Origin: Deltaproteobacteria bacterium
GTDB taxonomy: Bacteria; Desulfobacterota; Desulfarculia; Adiutricales; Adiutricaceae
Length of the DNA stretch: 44,203 nt
Direction of reading: 5' to 3'
NCBI GenBank assembly: GCA_031273455.1
Contig: JAISRZ010000082.1
Span: 1 to 44,203 of the forward strand
The notes under the pieces were generated by a model that worked only from the letters and a program-made list of their open reading frames with translations, had not been told where the DNA came from and did not search any database. The translations under genes and the position numbers were made by a program. Below are positions 7,892 to 34,065 of the stretch, piece by piece; the stretch's first letter is position 1, and every line of letters starts with the position of its first letter.

Positions 7892-8854
7892 TCACTTCGC
7901 TAGCGACCAATAACGTTCCTTTAGATACGTGTTCAGATTCGCGTAGTGGCCTGTCGTAACATCCTGCTTACTCCAGAACTCTTCCGGCGAGATGACGATG
8001 TACTTATTCTTCGATAGCTCGGTAAGGCAGCTCTTCCAAGTGTCCTCCATTCCTTGGCCGCTACACTTGTACTTCTTGTTAAGCAGTTGAGTGTTCGCCT
8101 CCGGGATGACGTGCAGGTGGAGATAGTCATCAGCCTCAAAACCATTAGGCTTGCGCTGCAAAACTTGGCCCACCCAGAGCGTCTGCCGCATAAGCTGATA
8201 GAACGGCTCAAACCAGCAGCACGACAGGATGTTTTCATTGAAGTATTTGGGTTCGCTTTTCTTTCTCTCCTCAATTAAGTCGAGGTAACGAGACTTGCGC
8301 GTCTCGCCTCCTTTTTGTTTAGACTTGTCTTCGTTGCTATAGGCCTCAACGTATTTCCACTCTATCATAATCAAGATGCGCCGCCCGTCATTGTGGAGGG
8401 CGTACATGCAGGCGTCAATGGACGTGCAGTTTCTACCTCTTCTATTAATTCCCTCGTTTAGGAAGTTGACATCGCCACCTACCACCTCGAACGCGATGTA
8501 TCCTGGCGAACTCTCCTCAATGGGCAAGACTTCCTTGAAGTCGTTCGAGACGGCTTTCAAGAGTTTAAGCGCGGCCTTCTCGTCCTTCCGTAGCGGGAAG
8601 AGATGGTTTAAACAAGCGATTTGCGATGACAGAATGTGCCCGCTGGGAGATCCACCCCACCAACCGATCTTGTTCTCCTCAAAGTACTGGAGCGTGTCTT
8701 CGCGGATGTCCGGAAATAGGTTACGACAGCCTTTCTCTAGCACAAATGGGTAAGAACTCTTATTAAAGAACTCACCACCGCCTTTGTCGCCATCAAAGAA
8801 ACCTTCATGTATAAGGTTCAAGCCAGCTTTTTTTTGGTCATTTTTGAATGTCAT
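7892..8854 (-). CDS. Putative restriction-type nuclease (PGN_0703-like, PD-(D/E)XK)
   Basis: 320-residue protein. It resembles, from memory, the PGN_0703 family of putative restriction endonucleases, sharing the N-terminal WWGGSPSGHILSSQIACLNH region and a basic KGGETRKSRYLDLI segment. A PD-(D/E)XK-like active site can be read as E123, D147 (TSIDACM) and E165-x-K167 (MIEWKYVE). The start ATG at 8854 has a strong ribosome-binding site (GGGAGGATGAGGA). Codon use is more balanced than in neighbouring housekeeping genes, which suggests acquisition. No methyltransferase is adjacent, so it would be an orphan or non-classical nuclease. Family naming is moderate; the nuclease fold is inferred from motif spacing. 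Confidence 0.55.
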   Translation of the reverse strand: MTFKNDQKKAGLNLIHEGFFDGDKGGGEFFNKSSYPFVLEKGCRNLFPDIREDTLQYFEENKIGWWGGSPSGHILSSQIACLNHLFPLRKDEKAALKLLKAVSNDFKEVLPIEESSPGYIAFEVVGGDVNFLNEGINRRGRNCTSIDACMYALHNDGRRILIMIEWKYVEAYSNEDKSKQKGGETRKSRYLDLIEERKKSEPKYFNENILSCCWFEPFYQLMRQTLWVGQVLQRKPNGFEADDYLHLHVIPEANTQLLNKKYKCSGQGMEDTWKSCLTELSKNKYIVISPEEFWSKQDVTTGHYANLNTYLKERYWSLAK

Positions 8855-9857: not shown

Positions 9858-12017
9858 TTAGGAGTCCAAGAGCTTATCGGAATCAAGGATCAAAACCACC
9901 CGACCATCGCCCAGTAAAGTTAGGCCGTTAAAGTAAGGGAGCTTCCGAAACGTTTCCAGCTCAAACTCCTTAATCACGATCTTCTGTTGGCCTAAGATCT
10001 CATCGGCCAAGATGGATTTACGGGACTCGGTTTTCCCCCGAAGGATAATAAAGACGTGGGTCTCCCGCGACAGATCCTCGGCCTCGCTGGGCTCATAAAA
10101 GGCCCCTGCCCGCGGTAAGCCCAAAAGCCACTTAAGATCAATAACCGAGATAACCATATCCCGATGCCGAAAAACCGCCCCATCCTTATGCCGATGGACC
10201 GCTAAAGCCGGAACCGTGACAATCTCGTTCACAAACTCTAAGGGCAAGCAGAAGGTGGACTCCCCGACCCTCAGCATAATGGCTTCTTTGGTCAGTAAAG
10301 TGTTGGTGACCGGCAGCCTTAAGCCCACGGTTAAACCCTGGCCGGGTTGGTTGTTAATGAGGACCTCCCCATTCCACTTTTTGAGGTTGGTCATGACCAC
10401 GTCCATGCCCACGCCCCGCCCAGAAAGGTCCGTGGCCTGGTCTTTAGTGGACAACCCGGAGTTAAAGATGAGCATCTCGGCCTCCTTTTCCGAGATAACC
10501 TCCGCTTGCTCCGGGGTTAAAACCCCCCGCTCCACGGCTTTGGTCTTAATCTTCTCAATGTCCAAACCCCGACCGTCATCGGCCACCTCGATTAAGATGG
10601 CCGCCTCCTCCGGGGTGACCCGGATATTGACCGAGCCCCTTCGAGGTTTCCCCGCCGCCTCCCGAGCGGCGGGCTCCTCTAGGCCGTGATCCACGGCGTT
10701 GCGGACGATATGGACCATAGCTTGCTCCACATCGTCCAATAAGCTCTTATCAATGGGCACCCGTTCGCCAGTGATGTTCATTTCGGCTTCTTTGCCGATC
10801 TTATGGGAGATGTCCCGCACCAATCGCGGGAACTTTTTGAGGATGTTGTTCATCTCCACTTGGCGGACTTCCATGATGGACCTTTGGAGGTTAACGATGT
10901 CATTGGAGATGGTCCGGGAGACCGAGCCAAAATCCCGTAAAAGCCCCGTGTCAATGCCCGCTTGCCGAAAAGAGAACTGGAGGTGGTTTAGGATCTCGCT
11001 TTTGGTGATAAGTTTACCCACCGACTCCAAAAAGAGGTCTATCTTAGCCTCATCCACCCGGATGGTCTTAACCTGGGGCTCTTTGACCGCCCCCCCGCCG
11101 CCCCGGGTTCCGCCAGCGGCCTTCTGAGCTGGGGCTTCCACTTCCACATGAAATTTTTCTTTTAACTCACCCAGCATGGACCCAAAGAACTCGACCATCA
11201 TCTGGTCCATTTCCAGCTCTTTTTCCTCAAAAAGGCCCAAACCATCGCCCAGTTCGGCGATGAGCTGCATGGCGTCCTCATTGGCCACCTCAGCCAGGTT
11301 CTTGTATAACCGATTAGCCGCCTCCACAAAAACCTTAGCGGTGTCCGCTGTCCCTTTCCCGTCTTTAAAAAGGGTCAGGTTCTCATCCATGAGCCGAACG
11401 TCCTCGGTTAAATCGACCCCATTGTAGTTAAAGCGAATCTGGTTGGCCCCCTCTTCCTCCAAGGTGACTAAGGCTAACCCTGAAGCCATGTCAGCCATGT
11501 CCTTTTTCAGCCCTTCGGTGTCAATTTCCTCCAAAGACGGCATTAAGGACTCCAGATCGTCCAAAAGCTTCCGGGCCGCGTCCACCAAGTGGGAGTCCCG
11601 GCGGTTAATCTTATCGATCTGGCTCTGGATCTCCCCCACAAAGGCCACGTGGTCGGCGGTCATGGTGGTGTAGCTAATGTCGTCCTCGAGCCGGGCGATG
11701 ATGTCCCGAAAGATGTCATTGCCCTTAAACAGAAGATCGATGATTTTGGGGTGTTTGGAGAGGATGGCGTTGTTCTTATCGATCATGGACATGAGATCCT
11801 CAAGGCGATGAGCGATGTTGGCGATGTTGTCAACATTGAACATCTTCGAGGACCCTTTGAGGGAATGCATGTTACGGAAAAGAGAAAAAATGGTCTCGCT
11901 GGAGGTGGGATCCTGCTCAATGGCCACCAGCTCGTTATCCAGAGTCCCGATGGTTTCCCGGACCTCGTCCTTGTATTGCTCAAAAAGTTCAGCCAGGTTT
12001 TCGTCCGTAACGCTCAT
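9858..12017 (-). CDS. cheA: CheA-type chemotaxis histidine kinase
   Basis: 719-residue kinase that would transfer phosphate from an Hpt histidine to CheY. The Hpt domain carries the phospho-acceptor His51 (NMHSLKGSSKMF). A second acidic helical segment follows (about 190-290) with no obvious P2 domain, then a Gly-rich linker (about 300-310), a dimerisation domain (about 315-385), an ATPase domain (N box VRNAVDHG at N440, DDGRGLD at 480-486, GRGVGMD at 533-539), and a C-terminal CheW-like domain (about 575-719) for receptor coupling. The ATG at 12017 gives MSVTDENLAELF. It lies 100 nt downstream of cheY on the same strand, probably as one operon. No receptor, cheW, cheR or cheB is in the window. 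Confidence 0.93.
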   Translation of the reverse strand: MSVTDENLAELFEQYKDEVRETIGTLDNELVAIEQDPTSSETIFSLFRNMHSLKGSSKMFNVDNIANIAHRLEDLMSMIDKNNAILSKHPKIIDLLFKGNDIFRDIIARLEDDISYTTMTADHVAFVGEIQSQIDKINRRDSHLVDAARKLLDDLESLMPSLEEIDTEGLKKDMADMASGLALVTLEEEGANQIRFNYNGVDLTEDVRLMDENLTLFKDGKGTADTAKVFVEAANRLYKNLAEVANEDAMQLIAELGDGLGLFEEKELEMDQMMVEFFGSMLGELKEKFHVEVEAPAQKAAGGTRGGGGAVKEPQVKTIRVDEAKIDLFLESVGKLITKSEILNHLQFSFRQAGIDTGLLRDFGSVSRTISNDIVNLQRSIMEVRQVEMNNILKKFPRLVRDISHKIGKEAEMNITGERVPIDKSLLDDVEQAMVHIVRNAVDHGLEEPAAREAAGKPRRGSVNIRVTPEEAAILIEVADDGRGLDIEKIKTKAVERGVLTPEQAEVISEKEAEMLIFNSGLSTKDQATDLSGRGVGMDVVMTNLKKWNGEVLINNQPGQGLTVGLRLPVTNTLLTKEAIMLRVGESTFCLPLEFVNEIVTVPALAVHRHKDGAVFRHRDMVISVIDLKWLLGLPRAGAFYEPSEAEDLSRETHVFIILRGKTESRKSILADEILGQQKIVIKEFELETFRKLPYFNGLTLLGDGRVVLILDSDKLLDS

Positions 12018-23125: not shown

Positions 23126-23172
23126 GACAAAAAAAGGCCAAAAGCCCTAATCTTACAGGGCTTTTGGCCTTT
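23126..23172 (-). terminator. Strong intrinsic terminator of the flagellin gene
   Basis: A perfect 16-bp stem (23133-23148 with 23157-23172) and 8-nt loop. On the minus strand the 3' arm runs into a T-rich tail (TTTTTTT then GTCC). It lies about 235 nt beyond the flagellin stop, the only minus-strand gene upstream. Confidence 0.8.
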
Positions 23173-23406: not shown

Positions 23407-26400
23407 TTAGGCGTTCAAGAGGGACAGAGCCATCTGCGGTAAGGAGTTGGCCTGGCTCAACATGGACACCGCGGCTTGGGCCAAGACCTGGTTCCTGACG
23501 AACTCGGTCATTTCTGTGGCCACATCCACATCCGAGATACGGCTCTCTGAGGCCTGGAGAGCCTCCATTTGAATCTCCAGGTTGGTGATGGTGTTTTCCA
23601 GACGGTTCTGGAGAGCTCCGATGTCCGCCCGGACCTTGTCTTTCCGTTCCATGGCACCGTTTAAGGCCTCCAAGGCTTCCTGGGCCGATGATTGGGTCCT
23701 AACTTCAGCTCCGGCCCATTCCCCGTTGGCCGCGTTCTGGATTTCCACAAAGCTGTGGCGATCCAAGCCGTTAATGATGCCGTCCGTTAGACCAGGGGTT
23801 TTAATCTCGTTTTCCCCATTATTAAGGGCGGCAATCCACAGGTCTCTTTGGGACCCCACGTCCCGTCCGTTTAAGGTTAGGTTCCAGACTTCCTTGCCCA
23901 TGCCGGCCTTGGTCTGGATAGGTTTAAAGGTGGCCCAGTTTTCCCCGCCTAGAGTGAAGGTGGTTCCTGACTGGTTAATCTCGTTAGCGGCCACGTTCTC
24001 GAACTCGATGGCTTGGAGAGCTTCCCTAGAGGCGACATCCCCGTCCGCCACGTCGCAGGCGAGTAAGCTATTGTAGTCGCCGCCTTTTTTGGTGAAGACG
24101 TAAACCATGTCGGCGCTTTGGCCATTGGAGTCATGGGATTGGACCATGGCCCAGAATTCGCTATCTTTGTTGTGGTTAATGGCCGAGGCTAAAGCCCAAG
24201 CCCCAAAGTTGGAGATCCCGGAGGCGTTGACGTAAGCCGTGCCCGCGCTGGCCACCAAGGTGGCGTGTTTGGTCTTGTCCACAATGCCCACGGTGGAGAC
24301 GGTCTGCGGCCCAGAGGCTTTTTTGTAGATATCCTCCCAATCTAGGTCTGTCACCTGCGCTTCGGTGGTGGGGCCTTTATGAGTGGAGGCGAGGATCTTA
24401 AACAATCGACCCGCTTGCATGCCTTTATCGGTTTGGGCCGTTTGGATTACTCTCTCAATATCATCGCTCAAAGCTTTCGCCAGATCCTTCATGCTGGTCG
24501 AAGTGGGCAATGGCGTTGTCGCCCAAGAGATTGATTTTCCATCCAAACTCACGGTAATGGCTAAATCGCCGACCGTCCCACCAGCGGTATTTCTGGTGGT
24601 ACCTGGATTGTAAGCGTTGACGCTGGCCGTAATATCGCTCAGCGTTGGAGCGGGAACTCCGGTCGTCCCACCTTTGGCGAGTTTGCCAGGTTCTAAGCCC
24701 GGGGTCGAGAGTTTCGCCGCCGCTTGAACCGCGCTTATAGCTTGCCCAATTGAAGTCGCGATGTCCTGACCAAGCTGCGTCATCCCTTGGACATTGTAAG
24801 TTGTCCCATCGAACAAATCACCCGTTGTCGGCGCGTAGAAAGTATTCCCTCCAAATTCGATAACCGCGCTGTAATAGCCCGATTGCGCTCCTGTTCCTCG
24901 ACTAAGAGTGTAGACCAGCTCTTCCATACCGAAGGCGGAAGCTATGGCTGAGTCTTGGGTCCAGTTGCCATTCCCGTCAACATAAACCCCTGTATTAACG
25001 GTAATCGAGCCTCCAGATATAATCTCACCTGCGCCCCCCGGAGCGGTCAGATTGGCCGCGTTTGACGGGGAACTGTAATCGATCGCCGAGGCGGTCAAGG
25101 CCGGGATACCCGCCCCGGTGTCGCCCGAGGTAAAAACCACGTTGGCCAGGGAGCCGTAAGTGGTCGCCCAGTAAGCTATAGCTTTGTTCTGGAGCTCAGT
25201 TAACGCCTCCGCGTTGGTGGCCGCTGACGCCGACAGATGGTAGTTAGCGGCCGAGAAAGCGGCCATGTTGAATCCGGCTTTGGCCAAGGCGCTATTGGTC
25301 GCGCTAGTCACATACAATCCACCGCTGGTCCAGTAGGCCGAGGTGCGATAATCGGCTGAGGCCACTCTCGGGGTATAGTCGTTATTCTCTACAGTATAGG
25401 TTATTTCCTTTAAACCCAAGGCCGAGGCTAGATCTTTATCACCGGTCCAGTTGCCAGCGGAGTCGGCGTACACCCCGGTGTGGACGATAAAAGACTTTTG
25501 CTCTTTCAAGGTCGCCGCGTCCCCTATCCCGGAAGTAGTCCCAGCGGTGGCGGAAGCCGTGATCTTAGCGGTGTCTAGAGCTGAATAACCAGAAGTTGCC
25601 CCTACGGAAACGGAGATGGCCGACATGTTGGCCATGTTCAAGGCTGACCAGATCTGGGCCAACTTATCCACGAGCATAGCTCTGGCGTCAGCGGAGCTGA
25701 CCTTGGAGGACGTGCTGGCCGAGATTATGGCCGAGGCCAGGTTAAGGTTAGTCAAATCAAGCCCAGCCGCCCTAAGGATGCTCAACTGGACGCTAGTTAA
25801 AGCGTAACCTTTGGTGGAGCTATAAACGTCCCCACTATTAGAGTAAGAGCCAGTGGCCAAGCTATAATCCAAAGTCCCTGAGTAGAACTCGGAGGTGACA
25901 TTAGGGTTATCAACCTCAGCCATCCCGTTAGGCCCGGATGGCGGAGTGGCCAAAGAGGAAACCACCCGACCGACGTCAATAAGACCTAGACCCGCTGGGT
26001 TAGTGGCGGTCGTCTGGAGAGAGGTCAAAAATTCGCTTAAACCGGTTTTCACGGCCAAGATTATGTTTCCTAAGTTAGTCGTGTTGGGCATCGGAGCTAA
26101 GGCTCCGGTGGTAATGGACGAGGTTAGGCCCGCGTAATCAATAGTGGTGGTCAGATCTCCCGTAGGCTGAATTTCAGTTGTGCTCGCGCCCGCCGCTTTT
26201 AATTCAGCGTAATCCTGGGGCGGCCATGGATCCGTACTCGGTGGGAAAATTGTTACATTTCCAGCGGTTCCCGTTAAACCTTGAGCGTTTTGACGCGCGG
26301 CGATTTCGTTCTTCAGAACAGTATTCAACCCACCAGTGCTTGAAAGAATATCACTTAAGGTCGTGGTATCGGCTGATAATGAGGGGAAAGTGACTCCCGC

Positions 26401-28434
26401 TGTCAGCGATCCACCGCTCAAAGAGAATATTAAATTATCATCCGGCCCCGCTGAATTTTTCACCGTGACAACAATTTCCGCAAAATTAGAGCCAAAAAGT
26501 TTGGCCACGGCTGAGTCAGTGGTGAAGTTACCATTGGAGTCAACGTAAACCCCAGTGTTGACCTTTATAGTCGCGCCATCTTTTATAACGCTGGCGCTAT
26601 TAGATCCGCTAATAGACGCCGTGTTGGCGTTGTAGACCGAAGTAGCGCTAATGTTGGCTAACCCAGCCCCAGTGTTCGCCGTGACCGCCAGCCCGCTATA
26701 GTTATTGCCTTGGTATTTGTTCTCCCACTCGGCCTTAATGTTGGCTAAAAACTGCGCTTGAGCGACAGCCGAACTTACATCGCTCACTGGCGGAGTCGAG
26801 GCGTTGGCGGACTCATGCCCGAAAGCGAGTTCGGCTAACAAACCAGCTTTATTAAAAGCCGAGTTCATTAAATAATTTTTGCCCCCGCTGGTCCCCGTAA
26901 AATAGTTCTCGCTAACGAACTTGTTGCCAGGCAGGGAGACTTCCTGGAGAGTCTTATCCTGGTTCAAGATATTGATGGTGATTTCCGTAAACCCTAAGGC
27001 CGAGGCGATCCGGGCGTTGTCCGTCCAGTTACCGTTAGCGTCAGCGTAAACCCCAGTGTGGACCACCAGAGTCTTTCCATCTTTGATGGTGGCCGTAAGC
27101 CCAGCGCCCGATAAAACATCGGATCCGGCGCTAGCTTTGACAATGGCCGAGTTCATAATGAACCCGGAGGTCACGCCCGCGCAGGTGGAGAGGGCGGATA
27201 AGGAGCTAAGCCCTAAGGCCACCCAAGCTTGATTCAGTCGAGCTATAAGTTGGGTTTTAGCTTGGGCTGAGCCAACTAGAGAAGTCCCACTGGCCGAAAC
27301 CTCGGCGACCTTTAAACCCATGGCTGTCAGGTCTAAACCAGCGTCCTCAAGTTTTTTGATTTGCTCCTGGGTTAGGCCATAGCCGTAACCAACTGTGTTC
27401 TTAACTGAGGAATACTCAAAGCCATCGTCATCGTATGATCCAGTGGCGGTGTACTTATCGACCCGACCCGAGACCGCCGGGATGGTGACGGTGCCGCCAG
27501 CTAAGGCCGCGCTCCCGAAGATATAAGCCTCATTGCCCATGCAGACAGCGGCGGTCCCACCATTTTTGATGGCCGCGGCTAAGGTTTCTCCGTCTAGCTT
27601 GATGCCCACGCGGCTTTGGGTGCCCTCATTAACCTTGTTTATCAGATCCTGGAGCGAATCGGAAGAGTTGACCGTGTACCGGCCAGCTAAGTACCGACCA
27701 TCCAAAAGGTCGGGGTCGTCGTCTTCCGTCCAATCCCAGTTGTAACCATAAGAGAAGGTCTGACCAGACTTAAACCCGGCCTTACCGTCTAGGGAGTCAT
27801 AACCAGCGGTGCAGCAACCAGGGCCAGCTAGACCCTTCGATCCAGCGGCCCCTTGACCCCAGATATCGTTTTTAGCGTCGCCGCCAATCCGAAGACCAGT
27901 GTGGCTGGTGGCCCGCACGTCGCCAGTATTGATGAAGTAGTAATCCTCATCCGCCGAGTTCCCCACGCCGAAGTGGATCTTCATGCCTAATCCGCCGTGG
28001 AGGTTGGTGATGGAGCCGTCAAGGAGCTTCACCCCATTAAAGTTGGTGGAAGTGGCGATACGGTCAATTTCCGCCGCCATGGCCTGATACTCGGAATTGA
28101 TGATTTCCCGCTGGAGGGTGGTGTAGGTGCCGGTGGCGGCTTGCTCAGCCAGCTCCTTCATACGGGTCAGTTTCTCATCGATGACGGCCATGCCACCATC
28201 GGCGGTCTGGATCATGCTAATGGCGTCGGCGGCGTTCCGGATGCCTTGCTGCATCGTGGTGATGTCGGCCCTCATGAGTTCCCGAATGGCTAATCCGGCC
28301 GCGTCGTCCGCCGCGGAATTGATTCGAAGGCCTGAGGACAGCCTCTCTACGCTTGAGCTAAGACGGCTGTACGTATTGTTGAGGTTCCTAGCCGTATTCG
28401 CTGCCATCATGTTGTGGTTGATAACGAGACTCAT
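23407..28434 (-). CDS. fliC: Giant flagellin with duplicated central domain
   Basis: 1675-residue filament protein; ordinary flagellins have about 270-600. The conserved ends are intact: N-terminal D0/D1 (1-140, MSLVINHNMMAANTARNLNN ... SGLRINSAADDAAGLAI) and C-terminal D1/D0 (about 1582-1675, ending SQANSLPQMALSLLNA). The middle (about 145-1580) is a huge Ser/Thr/Ala/Gly/Asn-rich insertion. It has two related blocks, about 331-700 and 861-1230, both opening TGSY, and each holding two modules with TGVYxDxxGN (residues 460, 627, 986, 1148). The family's filament core should polymerise and expose the insertion on the surface. No signal peptide, as expected for type III export. The ATG at 28434 follows AGGAGAA. 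A sigma-28-type promoter and terminator frame it as a single-gene unit. Confidence 0.93.
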   Translation of the reverse strand: MSLVINHNMMAANTARNLNNTYSRLSSSVERLSSGLRINSAADDAAGLAIRELMRADITTMQQGIRNAADAISMIQTADGGMAVIDEKLTRMKELAEQAATGTYTTLQREIINSEYQAMAAEIDRIATSTNFNGVKLLDGSITNLHGGLGMKIHFGVGNSADEDYYFINTGDVRATSHTGLRIGGDAKNDIWGQGAAGSKGLAGPGCCTAGYDSLDGKAGFKSGQTFSYGYNWDWTEDDDPDLLDGRYLAGRYTVNSSDSLQDLINKVNEGTQSRVGIKLDGETLAAAIKNGGTAAVCMGNEAYIFGSAALAGGTVTIPAVSGRVDKYTATGSYDDDGFEYSSVKNTVGYGYGLTQEQIKKLEDAGLDLTAMGLKVAEVSASGTSLVGSAQAKTQLIARLNQAWVALGLSSLSALSTCAGVTSGFIMNSAIVKASAGSDVLSGAGLTATIKDGKTLVVHTGVYADANGNWTDNARIASALGFTEITINILNQDKTLQEVSLPGNKFVSENYFTGTSGGKNYLMNSAFNKAGLLAELAFGHESANASTPPVSDVSSAVAQAQFLANIKAEWENKYQGNNYSGLAVTANTGAGLANISATSVYNANTASISGSNSASVIKDGATIKVNTGVYVDSNGNFTTDSAVAKLFGSNFAEIVVTVKNSAGPDDNLIFSLSGGSLTAGVTFPSLSADTTTLSDILSSTGGLNTVLKNEIAARQNAQGLTGTAGNVTIFPPSTDPWPPQDYAELKAAGASTTEIQPTGDLTTTIDYAGLTSSITTGALAPMPNTTNLGNIILAVKTGLSEFLTSLQTTATNPAGLGLIDVGRVVSSLATPPSGPNGMAEVDNPNVTSEFYSGTLDYSLATGSYSNSGDVYSSTKGYALTSVQLSILRAAGLDLTNLNLASAIISASTSSKVSSADARAMLVDKLAQIWSALNMANMSAISVSVGATSGYSALDTAKITASATAGTTSGIGDAATLKEQKSFIVHTGVYADSAGNWTGDKDLASALGLKEITYTVENNDYTPRVASADYRTSAYWTSGGLYVTSATNSALAKAGFNMAAFSAANYHLSASAATNAEALTELQNKAIAYWATTYGSLANVVFTSGDTGAGIPALTASAIDYSSPSNAANLTAPGGAGEIISGGSITVNTGVYVDGNGNWTQDSAIASAFGMEELVYTLSRGTGAQSGYYSAVIEFGGNTFYAPTTGDLFDGTTYNVQGMTQLGQDIATSIGQAISAVQAAAKLSTPGLEPGKLAKGGTTGVPAPTLSDITASVNAYNPGTTRNTAGGTVGDLAITVSLDGKSISWATTPLPTSTSMKDLAKALSDDIERVIQTAQTDKGMQAGRLFKILASTHKGPTTEAQVTDLDWEDIYKKASGPQTVSTVGIVDKTKHATLVASAGTAYVNASGISNFGAWALASAINHNKDSEFWAMVQSHDSNGQSADMVYVFTKKGGDYNSLLACDVADGDVASREALQAIEFENVAANEINQSGTTFTLGGENWATFKPIQTKAGMGKEVWNLTLNGRDVGSQRDLWIAALNNGENEIKTPGLTDGIINGLDRHSFVEIQNAANGEWAGAEVRTQSSAQEALEALNGAMERKDKVRADIGALQNRLENTITNLEIQMEALQASESRISDVDVATEMTEFVRNQVLAQAAVSMLSQANSLPQMALSLLNA

Positions 28435-28584
28435 GACGGTTCTCCTTTTAAACGAACGCCGTGCCCTCCGGCTGGCGGCGGAATTAATCGGTGTGGTTTT
28501 ATCCGGCCATACCGGTCGGAGGGTAAAACGGTCTAAAGGTCTTTTCCGTTTCCTTCTGGATTAACGGAACTTCCTTCAGTAATC

Positions 28585-28611
28585 TTATCGGAGTTCTTGG
28601 AAATCACTTTA
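28585..28611 (-). promoter_or_regulatory. Sigma-28 (FliA) flagellar promoter
   Basis: Minus strand: TAAAGTGA (28611-28604), 11 nt, TCCGATAA (28592-28585). Seven of eight -10 bases match GCCGATAA and the spacing is exact. It predicts a leader of about 145 nt for the flagellin mRNA. Confidence 0.8.
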
Positions 28612-32568: not shown

Positions 32569-33645
32569 TTAACTCAAGACCTCGTAGTTAATCTCCTGAT
32601 TAACCTCCAAAGGGCGAAAGACCACTCGCCTTAGAGCCCGGGGGTGGGCTTCCCGGCCAAAGTCAAACCCAGCGTGGTCCACCCAGATGGTCGTCTGGGG
32701 GTCAACTAGTTTTTTAAAGGCCCCATCCAACCAGATGGTGGTCTTAAAACCACCAGGCCTTTGACCCCGCCAGGAGCTGGAGTAAAAGGAGCATAACGAA
32801 AAGACGGGGGACAGCTCAAAGGGCTCGGGGCTCCCACCCTCGACCTGGTGACAAACCCTTACGGGAAAGCCGCAAGTCGTGGCCAGGTTTTTTAGCCAGA
32901 CCTGCCACAGCTCGTCCCGATAACCGTTAATCATGGTCCCTTCCACCAAAAGGAGGGCGTAAGGCGGGTTAGGGTAAAGCGTCCGCCCTTCCGCGTCCCA
33001 CCAGGAGCGGAGCCAAGCTAAAACCAAGGAGGCGTCGTCCAAGTCCATGTCCACCATGGTCCGCTGACCGCTTAGGGTCAGCGGATAGAAATCCAGGTCT
33101 CTAATGGGCTTATAGTCCCAGAGAGCCACCTCTTCCCTGATGGGGGGCAATTCCGTGGGGCTGAGCCTTTTGGTGGAGACGATTAGAGCCGGGACCGCGG
33201 CTTTCCGGGCCGCTTCCAACTGTTCTTGGATGAACTGACTTTGGGAGATAGCCAAAGGCCTTCGGGACTTAAAGATCCTCCGGCCCTTTTCGAGGCCGAT
33301 GCCCTTTTGAAAACCAATGAACAACAGAATGTCGTGTAAGTCCTTCTTGCGGACCGTGGTTAAACCCATTCTATACAACTCATCTAAGAGGAGATCGTCG
33401 CTAGCCCGGGTCCAGAGCTTAAAGGAGCCTCCGTTTTGGCCATCTAAGCGTTTTTGAATAATCCGCCTTAAGGCTCGGGCCTGGGTTTTGATGTCCCGAG
33501 GATCCCCTTCGCCCCAAGGCGGAAGCTCCGCGGGTTGGGCGAGGATTTCCCCAAAGACATTTTGATCGACCGTCTGATCAACTTCATTGGCGGTGGGAGT
33601 GACTATATTTTGGTGGCCTTGGGCGGGTTTGTTTGGGGTTTTCAA
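32569..33645 (-). CDS. ISAzo13-type transposase derivative with altered catalytic residues
   Basis: 358-residue open frame, TTG start at 33645 with GGAG 7 nt upstream. The C-terminal half follows the ISAzo13 transposase pattern as I remember it: WWDAEGRTLYPNPPYALLLV, then NGYRDELW (240-247), LKNLATTCG, VCH (264-266), the WRG block (292-294), and an ending like NxEINYEV. Where the family has ISVDTKKKE, this protein has LIVSTKRLS (Asp to Ser157). Where it has ITADGGGSNGYR, this has LLVEGTMINGYR (Asp to Glu235). A Glu is kept at 277 (FELSPVFS). The N-terminal third is shorter than usual. No terminal inverted repeats were found. It is either a decaying transposase or one adopted for another job. 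Confidence 0.65.
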   Translation of the reverse strand: MKTPNKPAQGHQNIVTPTANEVDQTVDQNVFGEILAQPAELPPWGEGDPRDIKTQARALRRIIQKRLDGQNGGSFKLWTRASDDLLLDELYRMGLTTVRKKDLHDILLFIGFQKGIGLEKGRRIFKSRRPLAISQSQFIQEQLEAARKAAVPALIVSTKRLSPTELPPIREEVALWDYKPIRDLDFYPLTLSGQRTMVDMDLDDASLVLAWLRSWWDAEGRTLYPNPPYALLLVEGTMINGYRDELWQVWLKNLATTCGFPVRVCHQVEGGSPEPFELSPVFSLCSFYSSSWRGQRPGGFKTTIWLDGAFKKLVDPQTTIWVDHAGFDFGREAHPRALRRVVFRPLEVNQEINYEVLS

Positions 33646-34065
33646 TCTCTAACTCCGGGCGGGTCAAAAGGACGCGGAAAAAGGCTAAAAAAAGGCGATT
33701 AAACTCTTGCCAGAGCTTAACTTTTTGATTATAATCCCCGATGACTCTTCGCTGGAGCCCCTCGGCTCGGCGTAACGCTCAGTCACTAACCCCGTCAGAT
33801 TCGGAAGAAAGCAGCGGTCCGTGAACCTGGACGTGTCGTGGAGTACCGGGGGGTTCCATTGAGGAGTTTTCTTTTCTTGTAAGACTACTTGACGCACTAA
33901 TCAATCTTCTGGGCTAAAACCGCTTAAACTAACGCTTGATCTTTTTCGCCTAAATAACTTAAGCCGTTAATAGCCTTCGGCTATCCTCAGATCTAAAACT
34001 ATCTAAAAAACCGCCAAAAAAAACCAACCTGCCTAGTTTTTAAGCCCCTAAGACACAACGCTCTG

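Follow-up and report, generated by a model that had tools for sequence, protein, structure and literature searches.

A giant flagellin with a duplicated outer domain array, probably the subunit of an unusually thick filament

Introduction

Contig JAISRZ010000082.1 of a Deltaproteobacteria bacterium (assembly GCA_031273455.1), which was analysed over its whole stretch of 44,203 nucleotides (the window), contains the gene of a flagellin of 1,675 aa, over three times as long as the classic flagellin of Salmonella. The locus raises the question of what the additional residues are, how they arose and what kind of filament they would build. The answer proposed here is that the protein probably keeps an ordinary filament core, from which a duplicated array of domains projects outward to give an unusually thick filament.

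The giant flagellin gene

The gene lies on the minus strand, a point left out of an earlier sequence-only reading of this DNA, and its frame starts with an ATG and contains no internal stop; the product has a mass of 173 kDa and a pI of 4.7. The features of the gene and of its flanks are the following:

23407..28434, minus strand: giant flagellin gene, 1,675 aa (open reading frame and domain matches)
28009..28422, minus strand: Flagellin_N (D0/D1, N-terminal half), residues 5-142 (Pfam, 131 bits, over the curated cut-off)
23416..23670, minus strand: Flagellin_C (D1/D0, C-terminal half), residues 1589-1673 (Pfam, 87 bits, over the curated cut-off)
28585..28611, minus strand: sigma-28-like promoter site TAAA-N15-TCCGATAA (motif match, and recurrence upstream of giants)
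28441..28447, minus strand: likely ribosome-binding site AAGGAGA, 6 bases 5′ of the ATG (read from the sequence)
23133..23172, minus strand: intrinsic terminator, a 17-pair stem with a T-run (hairpin search; folding z = -4.7)

The two Pfam matches bear out the earlier view of a single intact flagellin with typical filament-forming ends, and with its ends intact the protein exceeds the length of 1,000 aa by which giant flagellins are defined. Apart from Flagellin_N and Flagellin_C, the Pfam scan of the whole protein found no family at an E-value of 0.001 or better. Among the NCBIfam models, the best flagellin model scored 209 bits (its equivalog cut-off of 531 was not reached) against 73.6 for the FlgL models, of which TIGR02550, at that value, stayed under its cut-off; by these scores the protein is a flagellin, not FlgL.

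The source genome is a draft of 157 contigs, and the frame might be an assembly join of separate genes, which the sequence-only reading had named as a possible refutation, or a decaying pseudogene; either is scarcely credible. The join is refuted because full-length copies occur in other genomes: at least 11 genes were found in at least nine of the 41 genomes of the order, from the genera here numbered g1, g4, g6 and g10 (among the matches listed), with collinear copies in at least eight genomes other than this one, and at least 16 other database proteins, partly the same genes, measure 1,565-1,682 aa. The pseudogene reading is opposed by the stop-free frame and by the purifying selection described below.

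The promoter site was called on the sigma-28 consensus, and alone it is no better than chance (one match in the window at up to one mismatch, against 1.72 expected). Support comes from recurrence, since the same box is found 177-201 bases 5′ of the start in eight of the ten giants examined, the window copy included; the two giants without it are a tandem gene pair in one relative, L073 (G028:C83). The earlier claim of a sigma-28-type promoter is thus supported in the form of a conserved flagellar-type site. The strong terminator that had also been proposed is confirmed by the hairpin, about 235 bases 3′ of the stop codon; the stretch shows no general enrichment of terminator-like sites (10 found, 8.2 expected).

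Architecture of the outer region

Comparisons within the family were based on a set of 46 flagellins obtained by pattern filters on fetched loci. Duplicates and truncated genes did not pass into this set, and neither did one or more full-length giants, among them G023 (1,656 aa), which is represented in the protein collection by P0022, with four beads. The sequence-only reading had described a single central insertion of about 1,430 residues in place of the usual outer region, and on all three points the picture had to be revised. In BLAST comparisons with the 626- and 579-aa flagellins of the same genome, the giant aligns over residues 1-312 (or 309) and 1412 (or 1414)-1674. Because these bead-free paralogues align through residues 143-312 and about 1412-1588, some 350-380 of the supposed 1,430 residues belong to a base outer region common to them, and the truly added insertion measures about 1,065-1,100 residues (about 316-1380/1411). 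The insertion therefore does not replace the outer region; it sits within a family-specific outer base that the short paralogues have too. The parts are:

27490..28008, minus strand: outer base region, N-terminal half, residues 143-315, common to paralogues without beads (BLAST)
23671..24294, minus strand: outer base region, C-terminal half, residues 1381-1588, common to paralogues without beads from about 1412 (BLAST)
24295..27489, minus strand: insertion, residues 316-1380, two duplicated blocks, predicted contiguous alpha/beta domains (BLAST and AlphaFold)
26446..27516, minus strand: similarity region of block A, residues 307-663 (40% identity with block B at E 1.4e-47)
24889..25926, minus strand: similarity region of block B, residues 837-1182 (BLAST against block A)
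26959..27156, minus strand: bead motif 1, residues 427-492 (bead profile)
26452..26664, minus strand: bead motif 2, residues 591-661 (bead profile)
25378..25590, minus strand: bead motif 3, residues 949-1019 (bead profile)
24898..25110, minus strand: bead motif 4, residues 1109-1179 (bead profile)
27811..27816, minus strand: vicinal cysteine pair C207-C208 (CC in 45 of the 46 family flagellins)

Nor is the insert unique, as the bead tree (below) and BLAST of the two halves of the protein revealed. Self-BLAST of the whole giant returned the identity line only; the duplication emerged after the sequence was split at residue 800, as the 40% identity between the blocks, an internal duplication of the kind seen in some giant flagellins. 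The insertion holds a block of about 516 residues twice over, and either copy includes two bead domains, which are marked by a motif like TGVYADxxGNWTDDxxLASALGLxEV. In ten giants (1,646-1,675 aa) the mean bead positions are 424, 593, 942 and 1107, near-constant and with the blocks about 516 residues apart. A tandem-repeat search on the DNA gave nothing, so that the duplication is visible only in the protein.

The structure prediction that had been suggested as a check was run with AlphaFold2 on residues 316-1380, using 14 sequences, and yielded well-formed contiguous alpha/beta domains with a mean pLDDT of 82; at a pTM of 0.36 the model does not fix how these domains are placed relative to one another, and they would form a projecting array. 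A single bead, predicted from 27 sequences, reached a pLDDT of 84.8 and a pTM of 0.66, its five models ranging from 65 to 85 in pLDDT. The secondary-structure string can be read as three predicted domains per block, namely two beads and a third, different domain. The insertion is rich in Ser and Thr and weakly charged.

The statement that the insertion matches no recognised domain was upheld. Fold comparison of the insertion and bead models with the PDB found no significant relative, and their sequence profiles gave no significant match there (best value 0.29 in one search, none in the other); against PDB flagellins, the bead profiles matched none at E≤1. No Pfam family passed its cut-off on the beads, and the candidates TyrRSs_C (best E 0.0027, under the cut-off) and CBM_25 (0.18), each seen in one of 18 bead rows, were rejected. 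Enzymes and known adhesins were likewise set aside, as no Pfam match over cut-off was obtained. An enzyme-carrying flagellin does have precedents in the flagellinolysins, whose outer region contains a metallopeptidase according to the available sections of PMC7643111; however, with the HExxH motif in none of the 46 family flagellins and no peptidase or other enzyme among the Pfam matches over cut-off, such a function is very improbable here.

The base region is marked by the cysteine pair listed above. Further cysteines recur in the family flagellins, at residues 298 and 1460 of the giant. Among the matches listed, 55 of 75 unrelated large flagellins contain no cysteine at all.

Distribution of the beads

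Within the genus of the window, four of seven genomes contain a complete giant and a fifth has one cut by a contig end, while none was found in the other two (80% and 64% complete). Within the family, 24 of 37 genomes match the bead profile, against none of the other 26 genomes of the class; when the sample was widened to the phylum, five of 395 genomes matched, all of the same family. With region 315-1340 as query, 13 proteins were retrieved, all with a flagellin domain, among 7,992 candidates scored out of 5.8 billion; such protein-collection searches scored the 7,991-7,993 candidates with the greatest word overlap, inside fixed length bounds. In these searches, beads are thus found in the flagellins of one bacterial family only.

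We infer that this family is Candidatus Adiutricaceae of termite guts and that the window itself is of termite origin. Tree labels put several of the relatives in 'Myxococcota'; the NCBI lineage of Candidatus Adiutrix is Thermodesulfobacteriota, Desulfarculia. Two studies, in their available sections, assign Adiutricaceae or Adiutrix to the termite gut, in part as acetogens that are putatively free-living, and congruent with the termite tree (PMC9137090, PMC10281810).

The 46-flagellin set revealed how bead number varies with length. All ten giants carry exactly four beads, the 21 short proteins (573-634 aa) carry none, nine proteins of 713-876 aa carry 0-2 and six of 1,076-1,150 aa carry 2-4. 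In the protein collection, where 120 of 1,061 matches were examined (from candidates with the greatest word overlap, inside fixed length bounds), all 17 listed family proteins of 1,565-1,682 aa, that of the window included and partly the same genes as in the set, have four beads. The 29 listed family proteins of 955-1,288 aa are more varied (no bead in four, one in two, two in 13, three in three, four in seven, two of the last being N-truncated giants). A strict law of length and bead number was rejected, as counts overlap below 1,500 aa: the two are tied in the giants and only loosely below them. None of the 75 unrelated flagellins of 922-1,511 aa among the matches listed was hit by the bead profile. 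A second architecture, in which four beads follow closely on one another within about 280 residues, was observed in flagellins of 1,039-1,104 aa (L016; P0028, P0031, P0032, P0036).

The three same-genus loci compared have the same genes around the giant, for a DUF3417 phosphorylase, for a periplasmic binding protein and of the aro type, and the phosphorylase is a neighbour also in two loci of other genera; six other loci have no common neighbour beyond one weak match in the stretch compared. Elsewhere in the window, a cheA-like chemotaxis kinase gene (9858-12017, minus strand) lies about 11 kb from the flagellin gene, and a bacterial small SRP RNA (33759-33855, plus strand) adjoins an ISAZ013-like transposase gene (32569-33645, minus strand).

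Evolution of the insertion

The bead tree splits beads 1 and 3 from beads 2 and 4 (support 100/99). Beads 1 and 3 are each grouped (93/85 and 97/82), whereas beads 2 and 4, because of long branches, are less firmly resolved as groups (64/35 for bead 4); the four positions need three changes, which is the minimum. The split suggests that a bead pair likely arose first and that the whole block was duplicated afterwards, before g1, g4, g6 and g10 separated, as both bead 1 and bead 3 are represented in all of these genera. The ten giants form one clade of the core tree, within which two flagellins of 1,130-1,135 aa are nested (99/98). The nested proteins are best read as the products of a loss of one block, which would be a later event in some descendants. 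A hybrid-block (b1+b4) origin of these two, suggested by some windows of the alignment and mainly in one of them, was not established.

Compared with three same-genus orthologues, the insertion has a dN of 0.46-0.60 and a dS of 1.9-2.9, and its dN/dS of about 0.21-0.27, taken with dS near saturation, indicates purifying selection. In the N-terminal core, dN is 0.02-0.03, so that the insertion changes about 20 times faster in amino acids; it is constrained yet fast-evolving, as expected for an exposed surface. Such rates are also those of surface-exposed binding or antigenic domains, and together with the Ser/Thr-rich, weakly charged composition they would suit a coat that serves as an adhesin or ligand-binding surface for host mucus, wood fibres, protist surfaces or sugars, with thickness as a by-product. 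This use is unlikely, as fast evolution is the rule for flagellin outer regions generally and no significant binding domain was matched in Pfam, or by fold in the PDB. A coat whose main effect is to thicken the filament is the reading retained here.

Other flagellins and oversized axial proteins

The host genome (G000, 94% complete) encodes three more flagellins, of 1,150, 626 and 579 aa, each with a sigma-28-like site; a fifth Flagellin_N match is FlgL. When the insert of the 1,150-aa flagellin was used as query, it matched itself and one giant only, among the candidates scored, which indicates that it is much diverged.

The presence of four flagellins, each with its sigma-28-like site, suggests that the giant could be a minor or segment-specific subunit (e.g., near the hook or in a separate flagellum), most of the filament being formed by the 579-, 626- or 1,150-aa flagellins. 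Filaments of several flagellins are known. Moreover, identity over the first 310 or so residues of the giant is 73-77% with the four flagellins of Smac51 (L015) and with L016 and L017, and 56% with the 579- and 626-aa proteins of the host genome, which makes co-assembly plausible. Against a minor role, the giant and its promoter site are conserved across genera; such a role is a real possibility that falls somewhat short of even, and the giant as the builder of a thick filament is preferred. In Smac51 (CP026657, a complete genome), four neighbouring flagellin genes encode proteins of 785-860 aa, and others of 713 and 815 aa lie elsewhere.

Other external parts of the flagellum are also long in this genome, which encodes an FlgE-like hook protein of 1,175 aa (L107:1182-4709, minus strand), an FlgK of 859 aa (L009:5989-8568, plus strand), an FlgL of 1,112 aa (L009:8581-11919, plus strand; 163 bits against the FlgL model, over its cut-off), an FliD of 789 aa (L106:3013-5382, plus strand) and also FliS. 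Among the matches listed, FlgE-like frames with both ends measure 1,128-1,395 residues in at least 17 genomes of genera g1, g4-g8, g10 and g11. Those listed for g2, a genus that yielded no full-length giant, span 640-1,033 residues, and those listed from beyond the family 425-850. Every genus with a full-length giant has long hook frames in this listing, as do g7 and g11, which yielded no such giant. FlgL frames of 1,010-1,217 residues are present in 20 of the 22 listed family rows, giant-less genomes included, and range from 246 to 1,432 outside the family; several frames are cut by contig ends. The oversized hook and FlgL are thus, for the most part, family traits that accompany the giant and do not strictly follow it. 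A link between the long FliD cap and the giant was rejected, because FliD frames are long throughout the class, also where beads are absent.

Genes of the Maf type and glycosyltransferase genes are linked to flagellin glycosylation. At L105:1589-10439 lies a cluster of glycosyltransferase genes that includes a match to the Maf N-domain and also encodes an MptE-like protein, and a TPR-glycosyltransferase (L106:454-2727) adjoins fliD/fliS; these genes hint at glycosylated filaments.

A model of the filament

In the proposed mechanism, the giant gene would be transcribed by sigma-28 RNA polymerase at a late stage of flagellar assembly, the chain would be passed unfolded through the channel by FliS and the export gate of the flagellum, and the protein would polymerise under the FliD cap via D0/D1. 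Once outside the core, every bead would fold as one contiguous unit and so contribute to a dense coat that may be glycosylated; since the genome also encodes the 1,150-, 626- and 579-aa flagellins, mixed or segmented filaments may occur. A mechanical use would be the likeliest, as a stiffer, wider propeller or an altered waveform in the dense, particle-filled termite gut, in line with proposals for giant flagellins (PMC6248924) and for the outer-domain sheaths of viscous habitats (PMC8931119), as far as the available sections of both go.

The available sections of PMC6248924 give the filament of Salmonella, with its 495-aa flagellin, as 24 nm wide, and report widths of at least 30 nm for the giant flagellins of the Oceanospirillales Bermanella marisrubri (1,020 aa) and Oleibacter marinus (1,190 aa). 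Calibrated on these three lengths and widths, a packing estimate for 1,675 aa gave 44, 38 and 36 nm, respectively, and slightly different fill values gave 37-47 nm, so that a diameter of 36-44 nm may be crudely expected. The thick surface that had been proposed for this filament is therefore likely, by analogy with Bermanella and Oleibacter (PMC6248924, available sections).

A bolder and doubtful extension is that one termite-gut family has scaled up the whole external flagellum. It would combine a coat module without known fold, present in up to four copies per flagellin, a filament some 40 nm across, which would exceed every width that we found reported, an equally oversized hook (FlgE-like proteins of 1,128-1,395 residues in eight genera, FlgL of about 1,110), a cysteine-bearing base that locks the coat, and a thickness tuned by gain and loss of whole blocks.

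Comparison with known giant and sheathed flagellins

Giant flagellins and thick filaments are already known, as described in the available sections of PMC6248924. The giants of the Oceanospirillales resemble the present one in their normal D0/D1 ends, internal domain duplication and length above 1,000 aa; unlike them, it belongs to another lineage, reaches 1,675 aa and appears to have duplicated first a bead pair and then the whole block, with block loss. The same sections predict one flagellin per genome for the Oceanospirillales giants, against four in the host genome here, and describe their DE repeat as a homologue of the Pseudomonas-type outer region; the comparison with it was made through the bead profiles, which hit no PDB flagellin at E≤1 and none of the 75 unrelated large flagellins among the matches listed.

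In the same bacterial family, the six distinct flagellins found in Smac51 (CP026657, 713-860 aa) share the base outer region and the cysteine pair with the giant. Beads were matched in four of the six, two of them weak (E 0.003), and these proteins carry 0-2 beads and no four-bead block array. Flagellins of outer-domain-sheath and screw-like filaments are near 400-600 aa. In Escherichia coli H7, Achromobacter and Sinorhizobium, such filaments likewise have a surface layer over a conserved core, and their outer domains affect the waveform in viscous habitats (PMC8931119, available sections); unlike the flagellins of such sheaths, the giant has beads whose profiles match no PDB flagellin by sequence. 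With the flagellinolysins (PMC7643111, available sections) it shares a large insertion in the outer region, but not the HExxH motif or a peptidase match.

In the mainly open-access literature searched, no report of a bead-bearing flagellin family was found, and the bead module, the history of its duplication and the large size of the hook are apparently new. Thomson et al. 2018 left open how tandemly duplicated inserts fold and whether the other flagellar parts are large to match (PMC6248924, available sections). The present family bears on both points, through beads predicted to be contiguous and through an FlgE-like protein of 1,175 aa, FlgK of 859, FlgL of 1,112 and FliD of 789 aa. Since the number of beads varies from zero to four among its members while the core is related, it offers a natural series for the effect of coat mass on the width, stiffness and swimming of flagellar filaments.
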